Source: Candidatus Micropelagos thuwalensis
GTDB lineage: Bacteria > Pseudomonadota > Alphaproteobacteria > RS24
DNA length: 64,000 bases
Direction of reading: 5' to 3'
Assembly: GCF_000469155.1 (NCBI RefSeq)
Contig: NZ_AWXE01000001.1
Span: forward strand, 496,001 to 560,000
Shown here: in pieces, positions 31,958-39,489 of the stretch
Layout of the letters: the number at the start of each line of letters is the position of its first letter
Position numbering within the stretch: position 1 is the stretch's first letter
The notes under the pieces: model-generated
Databases searched by the model: none
Told to the model about the DNA's origin: nothing
The model's input: the letters and a program-made list of their open reading frames with translations, nothing else
Made by a program: the position numbers and the translations under genes

Positions 31958-32443
31958 CTAATCACTCAAATTTATATTATTGAATTTAATATCTTTTAAA
32001 CATAAAAAATATGCCCAAGCTATCAGAAGAACTTGTAAAGGTGCTCTTATCAAAAGATATATTGGTCCCCATTGATGCCCGCCAAGACCTATTCCGTTGA
32101 TTGCTGCATAAACGTTTGCTGGAAAAAAAATAATAAAAATCAAAATTCCCAATTTTGCTGCAAATGTCTGAAATCTAGCGATAAAAAGCATAAGTCCAAC
32201 AAATAACTCTATTAATCCTGTAAAATAAATTAATAAGGTTTTCAAAGGAACCCACATAGGTAACATTTCGATCATTCCGTCAGTTAATACAAAATGTCCT
32301 AGAGAAAAGAACAGAAAGTTAAAGCCTAAACCCCAACAAGAATATTTTTTAATATTTATAGGATATCCATTAAAGCTGGAATAAGAATAAGCAACAAATA
32401 ATGGAAAAACTAAAATTAAAAGAATTAGTAAAGGAGTGAACAT
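31958..32443 (-). CDS. DoxX-like small membrane protein
   Basis: 161 residues with about four to five hydrophobic helices. The pattern SLGHFVLTDGMIEMLPMWVP followed by GLIELFVGLMLFI, then PANVYAAINGIGLGGHQWGP and a final helix, matches the DoxX/DUF4267-like small quinone-related membrane proteins. The exact biochemical role of such members is uncertain. It lies 127 bp upstream of the FAD oxidoreductase on the same strand, an association seen with some membrane redox systems. Confidence 0.7.
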   Translation of the reverse strand: MFTPLLILLILVFPLFVAYSYSSFNGYPINIKKYSCWGLGFNFLFFSLGHFVLTDGMIEMLPMWVPLKTLLIYFTGLIELFVGLMLFIARFQTFAAKLGILIFIIFFPANVYAAINGIGLGGHQWGPIYLLIRAPLQVLLIAWAYFLCLKDIKFNNINLSD

Positions 32444-36256: not shown

Positions 36257-36682
36257 CTACTCAACCGCTCTTGCCGAGTCCTTGGTTGGTCGCAAAAGTA
36301 AAGGTACCAACCAAAACCAACCCAATATCGGCAGTGGAAAAATCCATAAAATACTCCACCATCCGCTTTTTCCAACATCGTGCAATCTTCTGATAGTTGC
36401 AGACATTGATGGTACGACCATTACAGGCCGAAACAGCAAAACTATTAAACCCACTTCGGGGTCAATGTACCCAAGTGGCATAAAGGTCATTAGGGGCAAG
36501 TCATTAAGGTCGACAGTGACGTCGAAAAACAACTCGTCCAAAATCCATACACATAAATAAGCTATGAGAAAAAAAAGAAAGAAGAACCAAAAATCTCCCC
36601 TATTCGATTTGCCGGAGAAATTGAATGTATTTTTAAAACCCACTAGTGTTGAGTATGCAAATCCTTGAAAAAATTTGTTCAA
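36257..36682 (-). CDS. DUF805 small membrane protein
   Basis: 141 residues with three to four hydrophobic segments. The DUF805 pattern is clear: FNFSGKSNRGDFWFFFLFF at the N terminus, ATIRRLHDVGKSGWW in the middle and a C-terminal LLLRPTKDSA. The function is not established. The start is TTG 36682 with AAGGAA six bases upstream (no ATG fits). It lies about 50 bp downstream of the weakest guaA-tail copy. Confidence 0.85.
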   Translation of the reverse strand: MNKFFQGFAYSTLVGFKNTFNFSGKSNRGDFWFFFLFFLIAYLCVWILDELFFDVTVDLNDLPLMTFMPLGYIDPEVGLIVLLFRPVMVVPSMSATIRRLHDVGKSGWWSILWIFPLPILGWFWLVPLLLRPTKDSARAVE

Positions 36683-36730
36683 CTAAATTTCCTTAAATAC
36701 ACTTGATTTAAAAATTATTTATTAATCACC

Positions 36731-36745
36731 TTATCCCCACTCTTG
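36731..36745 (-). repeat. Degenerate guaA-tail repeat (copy 4, tentative)
   Basis: The minus strand reads CAAGAGTGGGGATAA, sharing GAGTGGG and ATAA with copy 3 (11 of the last 12 bases), 116 bases further from guaA and in the same orientation. Alone it would not be convincing. Its place in the series supports it. Confidence 0.4.
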
Positions 36746-36846: not shown

Positions 36847-36861
36847 TTATTCCCACTCAAT
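36847..36861 (-). repeat. guaA-tail direct repeat (copy 3)
   Basis: The minus strand reads ATTGAGTGGGAATAA, matching the last 15 bases of guaA at 14 positions and again encoding IEWE-stop. It is 334 bases from copy 2 in the same orientation. Interpreted as an attachment-site copy (att) left by insertion at guaA. Confidence 0.8.
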
Positions 36862-36880
36862 AATATTATTACTATAATAT

Positions 36881-36898
36881 ATTGATTTTATTGAATTT
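36881..36898 (+). repeat. 18-bp cassette-end direct repeat, left copy
   Basis: ATTGATTTTATTGAATTT here is repeated exactly at 37159-37176. The two copies lie inside the two ends of the 334-bp cassette. The sequence is AT-rich, which weakens its significance. Confidence 0.55.
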
Positions 36899-36937
36899 AT
36901 TGAATTTTTTAATACTTTGAAACTACTTTGAAAGAAC

Positions 36938-37132
36938 CTAAGCATAGTTCATATAATAATGGTTTTCTCTATCGGCTTTAATCATTCCTTTGGTTTCATC
37001 CATAAAATTATTTCTATCATCTCTTGTCTTAAAAACCCATATGCAAACTGTATCACTGCTATGATATATTGCTTTCAGTTCGTCGTCTATTTTGCATATA
37101 TCTTCCGGTATATCTACTTTCAAACAGTACAT
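36938..37132 (-). CDS. Small hypothetical protein in guaA-tail cassette
   Basis: 64 residues with ordinary amino-acid composition (LKVDIPEDICKIDD, VCIWVFKTRDDRNNFMDE) and an AAAGG binding site nine bases before the ATG, so it is probably a real gene. No family is recognised. It has no signal peptide and no membrane helix and looks like a small globular mixed alpha/beta protein. It is the only gene between guaA-tail copies 2 and 3 and reads in the same direction as guaA. A promoter was not identified in the AT-rich upstream sequence. Confidence 0.55.
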   Translation of the reverse strand: MYCLKVDIPEDICKIDDELKAIYHSSDTVCIWVFKTRDDRNNFMDETKGMIKADRENHYYMNYA

Positions 37133-37158
37133 ATGATATTGCCTTTATAATTTAAATT

Positions 37159-37176
37159 ATTGATTTTATTGAATTT
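37159..37176 (+). repeat. 18-bp cassette-end direct repeat, right copy
   Basis: Exact partner of 36881-36898. It lies five bases from guaA-tail copy 2, just inside the cassette that carries the 64-residue ORF. Confidence 0.55.
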
Positions 37177-37180
37177 TTAA

Positions 37181-37195
37181 TCACTCCCACTCAAT
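37181..37195 (-). repeat. guaA-tail direct repeat (copy 2)
   Basis: The minus strand reads ATTGAGTGGGAGTGA, 14 of 15 identical to the end of guaA and encoding IEWE-stop. The similarity extends: over 37183-37202 versus 37947-37966, 18 of 20 bases match. It is 764 bases from guaA's own copy. Interpreted as an att site. Confidence 0.82.
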
Positions 37196-37465
37196 AGTTA
37201 CACTTTTACAAAGCCTTATGTAGCAAGGGTTTGCGAGGGGCAAAACTGAGTTTACAAGTAGTTTACAAGTTTCGTTCTTCATTTCTGCTTTTGTAACTCC
37301 CTCAAATTCCTAATGTAATCAGTATTTTAGCACTTTTAGACTTGTAAACTTTACAAGTGCTAATGCCCTACTCCAAATATTTCTTTCTAAAAAAGTTACG
37401 CTATAGGAACTTAACTGAAAGGATTGGCTACTCTCTTTCAGTTTTCCACCATTTCCCCGCAACAT
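37196..37465. other. Non-coding cassette end with reiterated TTTACAAGT motifs
   Basis: About 270 bases without a convincing gene. TTTACAAGT occurs at 37251-37259 and 37262-37270 in direct orientation. ACTTGTAAA-C-TTTACAAGT forms a perfect inverted pair at 37340-37358, nested in TTAGCACTT (37327-37335) and AAGTGCTAA (37355-37363). An imperfect inverted repeat, AAACCCTT/AAGGCTTT, lies at 37211-37232. Such clustered sites beside an att copy are what recombinase arm sites, an excisionase site or a replication-type iteron cluster would look like; no recombinase gene is present. Confidence 0.55.
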
Positions 37466-37945
37466 CTACTCGATTAGTTGATCATTCAGAGGCCTAAAAT
37501 TGAGATTTACTAGTTTCCGCCATCTCATTTGTCTATAGGAGTAAAAAATGAATGCGTAGATATAGATTGGTAATGTGAAAAGACCAGCATCGATAGAAAC
37601 CTCATCTGTATATCGAGTTCCGCCTCCCTTCGATTCTAAAAAAATTAGATGATCCCAAGTTTTTGCTATAGAACCACTTCCATTATCTCTGAGAACCCAA
37701 TGATCGAATTTTTGTGGAAATTCTATACCTACAATTTGTTTTCCGATGGGTAAAAAATGAAATGCGAACATTTTTACAGAGAACTTACCCTCAACCCATT
37801 TTGACGGAAAGAAATTTGGTTCGATAGGATGGAATTTCATTAAACCAGCCACCAAATAATTGAGTAGCGCTGGCGTCATTAAATAACTCTTAACCGTCTC
37901 TAAATCTGCTGCTAAATAGGTGCTGATTTTTAGCGTACGCATCAT
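37466..37945 (-). CDS. SRPBCC-fold (START/polyketide-cyclase-like) protein, cassette cargo
   Basis: About 159 residues. The N terminus LKISTYLAADLETVKSYLMTPALLNYLVAG, the middle FDHWVLRDNGSGSIAKTWDHLIFLES and GTRYTDEVSIDAG fit the SRPBCC ligand-binding fold; the specific ligand is unknown. A C-terminal hydrophobic stretch (FTLPIYIYAFIFYSYRQMRW) may associate with membranes. ATG 37945 overlaps the guaA stop as TAATG, and a second ATG at 37942 gives better spacing to GGGAG. It is thus translationally coupled to guaA through the repeat itself, between guaA-tail copies 1 and 2. Confidence 0.75.
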   Translation of the reverse strand: MMRTLKISTYLAADLETVKSYLMTPALLNYLVAGLMKFHPIEPNFFPSKWVEGKFSVKMFAFHFLPIGKQIVGIEFPQKFDHWVLRDNGSGSIAKTWDHLIFLESKGGGTRYTDEVSIDAGLFTLPIYIYAFIFYSYRQMRWRKLVNLNFRPLNDQLIE

Positions 37946-37959
37946 TACTCCCACTCAAT
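37945..37959 (-). repeat. guaA-tail direct repeat (copy 1, inside guaA)
   Basis: The native end of guaA, ATTGAGTGGGAGTAA on the minus strand, encoding IEWE-stop. It is the reference for copies 2-4. The 3' end of guaA is a known insertion point for genomic islands. Confidence 0.85.
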
Positions 37960-39489
37960 TGTTCCAGGTGGCTTAGATGTCACGTCATACACAACGCGGT
38001 TAATGCCGCGTACTTCATTAATAATACGCGTTGAAACACGACTAAGAAATTCATGTGTGAAAGGATAATAATCCGCTGTCATACCATCGGTAGAAGTCAC
38101 AGCACGAAGCGCACATACATAATCATAAGTCCGGCTATCACCCATAACACCTACAGTTCGCACTGGTAACAAGACTGCGAATGCTTGCCATATCTCATCA
38201 TAAAGGCCTTGCTTGCGTATCTCATCGAGATAAACGACATCGGCTTTTCTTAGAATATCCAATTTCTCTGACGTAATTTCACCGGGAAGACGAATAGCCA
38301 GACCAGGGCCGGGAAATGGATGCCGCCCGACAAAAGCATCTGGCAAACCTAGCTCACGCCCTAAGTCACGCACTTCATCTTTAAACAGCTCACGCACCGG
38401 CTCAACCAACTTAATATTCATGCGCTCAGGCAAGCCACCAACATTATGATGGCTCTTAATCGTCACACTCGGGCCGCCAGTGAAAGACACACTTTCGATA
38501 ACATCGGGATAAAGCGTGCCTTGTGCCAGAAAATCAGCGCCACCAATAGCTTCTGCCTCAGCTTCAAAAACATCAATAAAAGTTGCACCAATAATCTTAC
38601 GCTTTTGCTCGGGATCAGAGACACCATCGAGTTTGGATAAAAACAAATCAGAGGCATCTTTATGAACAAGCTTGATGTTGTAATGGTCACGGAACAAGCT
38701 AACCACCTGCTCACTTTCGCCTGCACGCATCATGCCAGTATCAACATAGACACAGGTTAGTTGCTCCCCAATCGCCTCATGGAGCAATACGGCAACAACA
38801 GAACTATCCACCCCGCCGGAGAGACCGCAAATTACCCGCCCCTCGCCAACTTGTGCACGCACCTGATCAATAGCCTTTTTCTTGAAAGCTGCCATTGACC
38901 ATTTTCCATCACATCCAGCGATATGATGAGTAAAATTCCGTAACATTTTAGCGCCATCAGGCGTATGCACCACTTCGGGATGGAATTGAACCCCATAGAT
39001 TTTGTCCGTTTCATTTGCAATAGCAGCAAAAGGTGCGTTCTCGGATGTGCCAATCACTTCGAATTTTTCAGGGAGCGACATAACGCGATCGCCATGGCTC
39101 ATCCAGACTTGAATGTCAGAACCCGGACTTGCGATACCTTCAAAGAGAGGGCTGGCTTTTGATAAAGATAGCATAGAACGACCAAACTCACGTTCATCAG
39201 ACGTTTCAACACGCCCACCAAGCTGGGCACATAGAGTTTGTTGACCATAACAAATACCGAGTAACGGTTTGCCGGAACTTAAAATTTCATCTGGGGCACG
39301 CGGCGTATCCAGATCAGCAACGCTATTAGGGCCGCCTGATAAAATAACGGCCTTTGGATCAATTTCTGTAAATTTTTCCGAGGCACTCTGGAAAGGAACA
39401 ATTTCACAATAGACACCGCTTTCTCTGACTCGTCGGGCAATAAGCTGAGTTACCTGACTGCCAAAATCAACTATCAGAATGCGATCCAT
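37945..39489 (-). CDS. guaA: GMP synthase (glutamine-hydrolysing)
   Basis: 514 residues; converts XMP to GMP. The class I amidotransferase domain has [15 protein letters not shown] (catalytic Cys near residue 82) and [10 protein letters not shown]. The ATP pyrophosphatase domain has [12 protein letters not shown] near 225, and the C-terminal dimerisation domain ends KPPGTIEWE, the near-universal GuaA terminus. The stop abuts the SRPBCC start. Upstream genes on the same strand are a TPR protein and guaB, so both steps from IMP to GMP are clustered. Confidence 0.97.

Follow-up and report, generated by a model that had tools for sequence, protein, structure and literature searches.

Repeats beside guaA in Candidatus Micropelagos thuwalensis as probable arm-type sites of a small integrase-less mobile unit

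Downstream of guaA in Candidatus Micropelagos thuwalensis, four copies of one 9-mer are packed into little more than a hundred base pairs, directly beside a repeat of the sequence found at the guaA end. An earlier note on this DNA had suggested that such repeats could be arm-type recombinase sites, an excisionase site or iterons, and that they might allow the neighbouring cassette to be recognised by an enzyme encoded elsewhere. What are these repeats for, and which enzyme, if any, would use them? We address this question using the 64,000-nucleotide stretch of DNA that contains the locus (hereafter the window), together with other genomes that carry islands or smaller units at guaA.

The repeat cluster

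Two copies of the 9-mer TTTACAAGT are direct repeats (37251-37259 and 37262-37270), while the other two form a perfect inverted pair (37340-37348 on the minus strand and 37350-37358 on the plus strand), so that all four copies are where the earlier note had placed them and together span 108 bp. The nesting of this pair in a second inverted repeat, also described there, was found again, and the "att copy 2" beside the motifs is real, being a GAGTGGGA core that reads on the minus strand from 37192. The cluster comprises the following features.

37250..37270, minus strand: putative arm-type pair ACTTGTAAACTACTTGTAAAC, 11-bp spacing, 78 bp before core 2, containing two of the four motif copies
37340..37358, unstranded: inverted pair ACTTGTAAA-C-TTTACAAGT, read as probable further arm-type sites (or an excisionase site)
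37327-37335 / 37355-37363, unstranded: outer inverted repeat TTAGCACTT / AAGTGCTAA, enclosing the inner pair
37209..37233, unstranded: inverted repeat AAACCCTT..AAGGCTTT, between the arm pair and core 2

This cluster is far above chance. The window contains 5 copies of TTTACAAGT where 0.52 are expected, a count of at least 5 being reached in none of 100 shuffles, and no other 9-mer in the 64 kb reaches four copies within 110 bp without overlap. No comparable four-copy 9-mer cluster appeared in 30 order-2 Markov sequences. Across the genome (1,957,724 bp) there are 17 copies of TTTACAAGT against 31 of the reversed control pattern, indicating that the word itself is not common and that its clustering alone is unusual; 4 of the 17 fall in the 108-bp cluster. 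These counts contradict a chance cluster. The fifth copy in the window (32031-32039) lies inside an unrelated ORF (31958-32443) that has no Pfam match.

Three tandem units behind guaA

The GAGTGGGA core found within the last codons of guaA is repeated at 37192, at 36858 and, in degenerate form, at 36742, and the DNA behind guaA can thus be divided into three units in tandem, A, B and C. The features of the locus are listed below, where IHF matches refer to the IHF consensus WATCAANNNNTTR.

37945..39489, minus strand: guaA (GMP synthase), the target gene, intact
37949..37956, minus strand: att core 1, GAGTGGGA, within the last guaA codons
37185..37192, minus strand: att core 2, GAGTGGGA
36851..36858, minus strand: att core 3, GAGTGGGA
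36735..36742, minus strand: att core 4, degenerate, GAGTGGGG
37193..37956, minus strand: cassette A, a 764-bp integrase-less unit with att cores at both ends
37466..37954, minus strand: cargo gene of cassette A, 162 aa, overlapping the guaA stop
36859..37192, minus strand: cassette B, 334 bp, with a 64-aa ORF at 36938-37132
36913..36933, minus strand: putative arm-type pair of cassette B, TTTCAAAGTAGTTTCAAAGTA, 75 bp before core 3
37153..37165, minus strand: IHF consensus match just past core 2 (start of cassette B)
36875..36887, minus strand: IHF consensus match before core 3

None of the three units contains an integrase gene, their only ORFs being those of 162 and 64 aa, both without a family match. 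The 162-aa cargo of cassette A matched nothing in Pfam or NCBIfam; a 44% relative is present in G147. Cores 3 and 4 are 116 bp apart, and the unit that they bound, C, lacks both an ORF of 50 aa and a clear arm pair. Cassette A is devoid of left arm sites (the best left pair has 3 mismatches of 10), and no IHF consensus occurs between the motif cluster and core 2, i.e., at the cassette's own right end. The window has no tRNA or Rfam feature, and a comparison of the cassette region with the phage collection gave no match.

The outermost core is followed by a DUF805 gene (window 36257-36742). The same arrangement is seen in G020 (L149 3569-4116), where the gene is 75% identical, but in G018 the gene directly behind guaA is related to the one located next after DUF805 in G020. 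The DUF805 segment may be a further insert.

Integrases and left ends of guaA islands

Complete guaA islands with an integrase adjoining guaA are present in two genomes, G001 and G014, the former being of the same genus as the window and matching alphaproteobacterium IMCC14465 of the PS1 clade. Scanning the named genomes with these two integrases yielded 52 loci. A guaA-type core lies no more than 700 bp upstream of the integrase in 42 of these, and the 10 loci without such a core were excluded from the set of left ends. Distances from the core, here and below, follow the direction of guaA. The best-scoring tandem pair of 11-bp spacing in these 42 left ends is mostly found at +47 to +53, with a mean of 2.14 mismatches of 10 compared with 4.98 in the background. 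Two distinct pairs can be recognised in a set of 45 left ends: pair 1 is specific to a spacing of 11 (mean mismatches 1.56 of 9, background 4.41) and pair 2, near +115, is specific to a spacing of 12 (1.96, background 3.98), with other spacings remaining close to background. The letters of the arms differ by island (e.g. TTACACA, ATACAAAC, TTAGACA and TTACAAAG), as would be expected if they match different integrase N-terminal domains. A match to WATCAANNNNTTR within +8 to +60 was found in 22 of 42 left ends and in 0.6% of background stretches.

The letters used in the window are shared with a close relative. When up to 2 mismatches are allowed, the 20-bp arm pair occurs twice in 28 family genomes, once in the window and once in G002, of the same genus, where it forms part of a left end ~51 bp behind the guaA core. 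A second pair in G002, TTGTAAACAAACTTGTAAAC, uses TTGTAAAC, the same letters, at a spacing of 12 and with 0 mismatches. Among 45 left ends, that of G002 is the closest to core 2 and that of G151 the closest to core 3. The G002 contig stops ~100 bp into the first ORF, and the TTGTAAAC-type integrase was not seen; the G002 stretch around another integrase, C6 (L144), contains no guaA-type att core. In the search of guaA islands for the motif, as proposed in the earlier note, exact copies of the 9-mer proved rare (1 of 42 left ends and 1 of 24 right ends, the further sites being the G002 left end and G781, described below). The rarity is explained by arm letters that differ between islands while their geometry stays.

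The genome of the window has five PF00589 matches, in ORFs of 325-343 aa, and no relative of the IMCC14465 guaA-site integrase at E <= 1e-15. A tblastn search of the plasmid collection with the latter returned one distant match (28.5%), integrase alignment A2 found one weak locus in viral_contigs, and the left-end pattern was absent from 385 class genomes (G002 not among them). Integrases at seven loci (L092-L095, L104, L105 and L107) are 86-97% identical over the matched stretch to the IMCC14465 (PS1) enzyme, in records assigned to Rhodobacteraceae, SAR116, Pseudomonadales, Oceanospirillales and Porticoccaceae, which points to recent spread across classes. Separately, in G028 (L076, 1669 and 5158) a second copy of the guaA C-terminus lies ~3.5 kb downstream of guaA, marking an insert.

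Right ends of guaA islands and units

In a first set of far-end cores (n=24, including 15 right ends picked by eye as intergenic), the 11-bp pair score differed from background with p = 1.6e-12, a value that, like the other p-values given here, overstates independence as the loci are related. Eight core-like words inside genes, which had been set aside by eye as chance cores and then served as controls, showed 2-5 mismatches (p = 0.001 versus right ends). The final set, obtained after removing near-duplicates and adding later cases, has 27 right ends, 16 of which carry a pair with at most 1 mismatch of 10, compared with 1.35% of background windows. Position is also tightly constrained: of the right ends with at most 2 mismatches (n=20), 19 have the pair at -67 to -82 and one at -97. 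In the window, core 2 has a pair at -78 with 0 of 10 mismatches and core 3 a pair at -75, again with 0 mismatches, while core 4 has no pair (6 mismatches).

A further test used cores chosen by the word CTATTGAGTGGGARTR alone from 385 class and 398 phylum genomes, with the window excluded. The 33 guaA-coding cores obtained in this way score 2-6 and seven others score 0, 0, 1, 1, 2, 3 and 3 (p = 2e-5); two of 10 non-guaA cores (L155 and L169) were too close to a contig end for scoring.

Right ends also tend to repeat their own arm word further inside. With ends of more than 2 mismatches omitted, 18 were scored, two of them from the window, and these contain 16 inverted copies against 3.0 expected and 13 direct copies against 6.1 expected. 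The inverted pair of the window, at -148 to -166, is consistent with these inner inverted copies, the positions of which vary in other right ends. Repeats resembling AAACCCTT..AAGGCTTT are present in other right ends as well. A comparison of arm letters at the two ends of each of 9 islands gave no significant left-right agreement (p = 0.13), and the arm pattern had one match in viral_contigs (L091), with no core in the 800 bp examined.

In their place, orientation, 11-bp spacing and extra inverted copies, the repeats of the window match other guaA att sites, which lends good support to the first of the earlier note's suggestions. On the comparative sequence evidence, we consider it probable (roughly 85%) that the repeats are arm-type sites of a guaA-specific tyrosine integrase and make up the right end of a small mobile unit that lacks an integrase.

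A variant of this reading, in which the direct pair alone is arm-type and the inner inverted pair (37340-37358) is a site for an excisionase or another accessory protein, seems to us rather unlikely, though it is the best placed of the alternatives. The inverted pair lies outside the fixed-position pair and differs from it in orientation, and the variable placing of inner inverted copies in other right ends would suit such a site. However, its letters are exactly those of the arm pair, and right ends, the window included, contain an excess of inverted copies of their own arm letters.

Cassette A in a second family

A near-identical copy of cassette A is found in G781, a member of another alphaproteobacterial family, where the next core likewise follows the guaA core after 764 bp. 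The two units differ at 8 of 772 positions, three of these differences changing an amino acid, and none falls within the four motif copies; the arm pair is unchanged. In contrast, the 386 bp of guaA that precede the unit are 68.7% identical between the two genomes, and the sequences past the unit are unrelated (29% identity without gaps, with a best local match of 10 bp). Compared with eight other members of its own family, G781 shows 76-94% identity in guaA, making a misbinned contig unlikely.

Judged from these two copies, cassette A is a discrete mobile unit that has moved core to core without an integrase of its own. As the same precise unit is present in two families and has no integrase inside, the integrase must come from elsewhere. 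The earlier note's idea of an enzyme encoded elsewhere thus gains support from the G781 copy and the lack of an integrase in the unit, and further backing from the lack of a guaA-site integrase relative in the genome at the threshold given above.

Similar units in other marine bacteria

Comparable units are not confined to these two genomes. In SAR86 AG-333-P02 (L116), guaA is followed by an island with an integrase and then by three integrase-less units bounded by cores, and all five exact cores of that genome lie inside this array. Of the units in this array (L116 12667-16426), one carries two genes (one of them weakly UDG-like), another a GIY-YIG gene and a third a dienelactone hydrolase gene. 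The PS1 relatives G020 and G016 have one unit apiece, and in the family of G781 at least 2 exact cores occur within 5 kb on one contig in 7 of 18 genomes. Genes with tetratricopeptide-like repeats, recognised by eye, lie close downstream of guaA in several genomes of that family (L228, L229 and L242).

We tabulated 15 such units. An ORF of at least 50 aa is present in 13 of them (12 independent units, since the one in G781 duplicates cassette A), and in all 13 the longest ORF runs in the guaA direction. The left arm pair is poor in every one of the 15 (3-6 of 10 mismatches, versus the mean of 2.14 in islands). The exact left word TGAGTGGGARTRAAGTGAATAAAA, a left terminus unlike that of the islands, is common to seven units from five genomes; the pattern of this terminus was not found in viral_contigs. 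Right termini are also common to units with different genes, namely SAR86 unit 1 and G779 (94 bp, 88%), SAR86 unit 2 and a G199 core (173 bp, 88%), and G370 and G772 (151 bp, 91%). The G199 unit starts with an island-like left end.

Competing explanations

These units bear on a second alternative, in which A, B and C are remnants of guaA islands that have lost their integrase and left end, much like CIMEs, and their arm sites are fossils that are rarely or never used. Unit C with no ORF of 50 aa, the degenerate core 4 and the island-like left end of the G199 unit are what such decay could leave behind, and a review states that tandems of this kind usually arise by decay and subsequent accretion (PMC5704250). 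Nevertheless, unit A is common, core to core, to G781 in a different family, and so moved in its present form. A single left terminus, unlike that of islands, recurs in seven units from five genomes, and left arm sites are wanting in the cassettes at large. Decay is an improbable account in our view, less so than the remaining ones.

We regard it as very improbable that the repeats act as an operator or terminator of adjacent genes. The inverted pair does fold better than shuffles when treated as DNA (z -4.1), but a terminator was rejected as there is no terminator-like site at the repeats, and an operator of the next gene was rejected as the repeats are unchanged in G781 even though the sequence that follows them differs. 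Iterons, the other possibility named in the earlier note, were also rejected, as the unit has no replication gene and no replication initiator gene lies beside the repeats. A chance cluster, for which the AT-rich character of the region might speak, has a negligible probability given its absence from all shuffles and model sequences and its retention in a second genome.

Proposed mechanism

If the repeats are arm-type sites, cassette A would consist of a core, its single gene, the arm sites and a second core, in that order. A tyrosine integrase specific to guaA would bind the repeats through its N-terminal domain, and this helper would come from a guaA island elsewhere, with the same arm specificity. 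This enzyme would occupy the direct pair and the inner inverted copies and bridge them to GAGTGGGA. The unit would then be excised as a circle and inserted at a guaA core, with the inserted end restoring the last guaA codons and the stop. As cassette A has no left arm sites, its circle would carry a one-armed att site, in contrast to lambda. Protein binding, the circle, the helper enzyme and a host factor (bending by IHF) are what we infer from this anatomy.

A broader proposal, to which we give somewhat less than even odds, is that the units constitute an integron-like gene-cassette system that is run in trans by the integrases of guaA islands. Such cassettes would hold one or two genes in the guaA direction, the first start mostly close behind the core, with a single composite right-end site (arms plus core) and a short left terminus. 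They would enter at the guaA core, within possible reach of guaBA transcription, accumulate as arrays, and be exchanged among streamlined marine alpha- and gammaproteobacteria.

Relation to known systems

Lambda-type att sites combine a core with tandem arm-type sites and IHF sites. The guaA att sites resemble them in having a core, what appear to be tandem arm-type sites and IHF consensus sites nearby, whereas cassette A is armless on one side and has no IHF consensus at its own right end. Integron gene cassettes consist of one gene and one recombination site and form arrays of the same orientation beside a transcribed gene. The units described here are alike in all of these respects, including insertion by a transcribed gene, but no IntI was seen, and their site is a core with tandem arms rather than the folded attC of integrons.

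Decay and accretion of att-flanked elements (CIMEs) are already known (PMC5704250). CIMEs (cis-mobilizable elements) are, like the units here, flanked by att sites, without an integrase and placed in tandem at one target gene (PMC5704250). A CIME, however, is a decayed element that retains both ends (PMC5704250), whereas the units here are without left arm sites and one of them, cassette A, is precise in two families.

In the work on GIsul2, GAGTGGGA was named as the putative recombination core of guaA islands, and the GIsul2 integrase was shown experimentally to excise and move the CR2-sul2 unit at that same core (PMC9376610), which makes action in trans plausible for the cassettes. The two systems share the guaA 3' end, the GAGTGGGA core, an extra internal att site and, if our reading is correct, an island integrase that excises and moves a unit flanked by att sites (PMC9376610). 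CR2-sul2 differs in being larger and in having a putative transposase gene, rcr2, while the cassettes here have one or two genes and common ends, and the GIsul2 paper names no arm-type sites (PMC9376610). The 28.5% match mentioned above, which was all that the IMCC14465 integrase gave in the plasmid collection, does not establish kinship with the GIsul2 integrase by sequence. Among the papers listed by our literature searches, we found no report of guaA cassettes with such anatomy and none that describes the arm sites of guaA-site integrases. The closest known systems are CR2-sul2/GIsul2 and CIMEs, next to which a regular, integron-like anatomy of the cassettes would be a new variation.

The traffic of single genes into and out of the small genomes of streamlined ocean bacteria is not well understood. 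A cassette of <1 kb would offer such genes a very inexpensive route if all it needs is a borrowed integrase and a target gene that is universal. The cassette reading predicts circles, dependence on the arms and arrays beside guaA, and an arm-site geometry is now available for guaA-site integrases. Overall, these observations suggest that single genes travel between ocean bacteria by means of borrowed recombinases.
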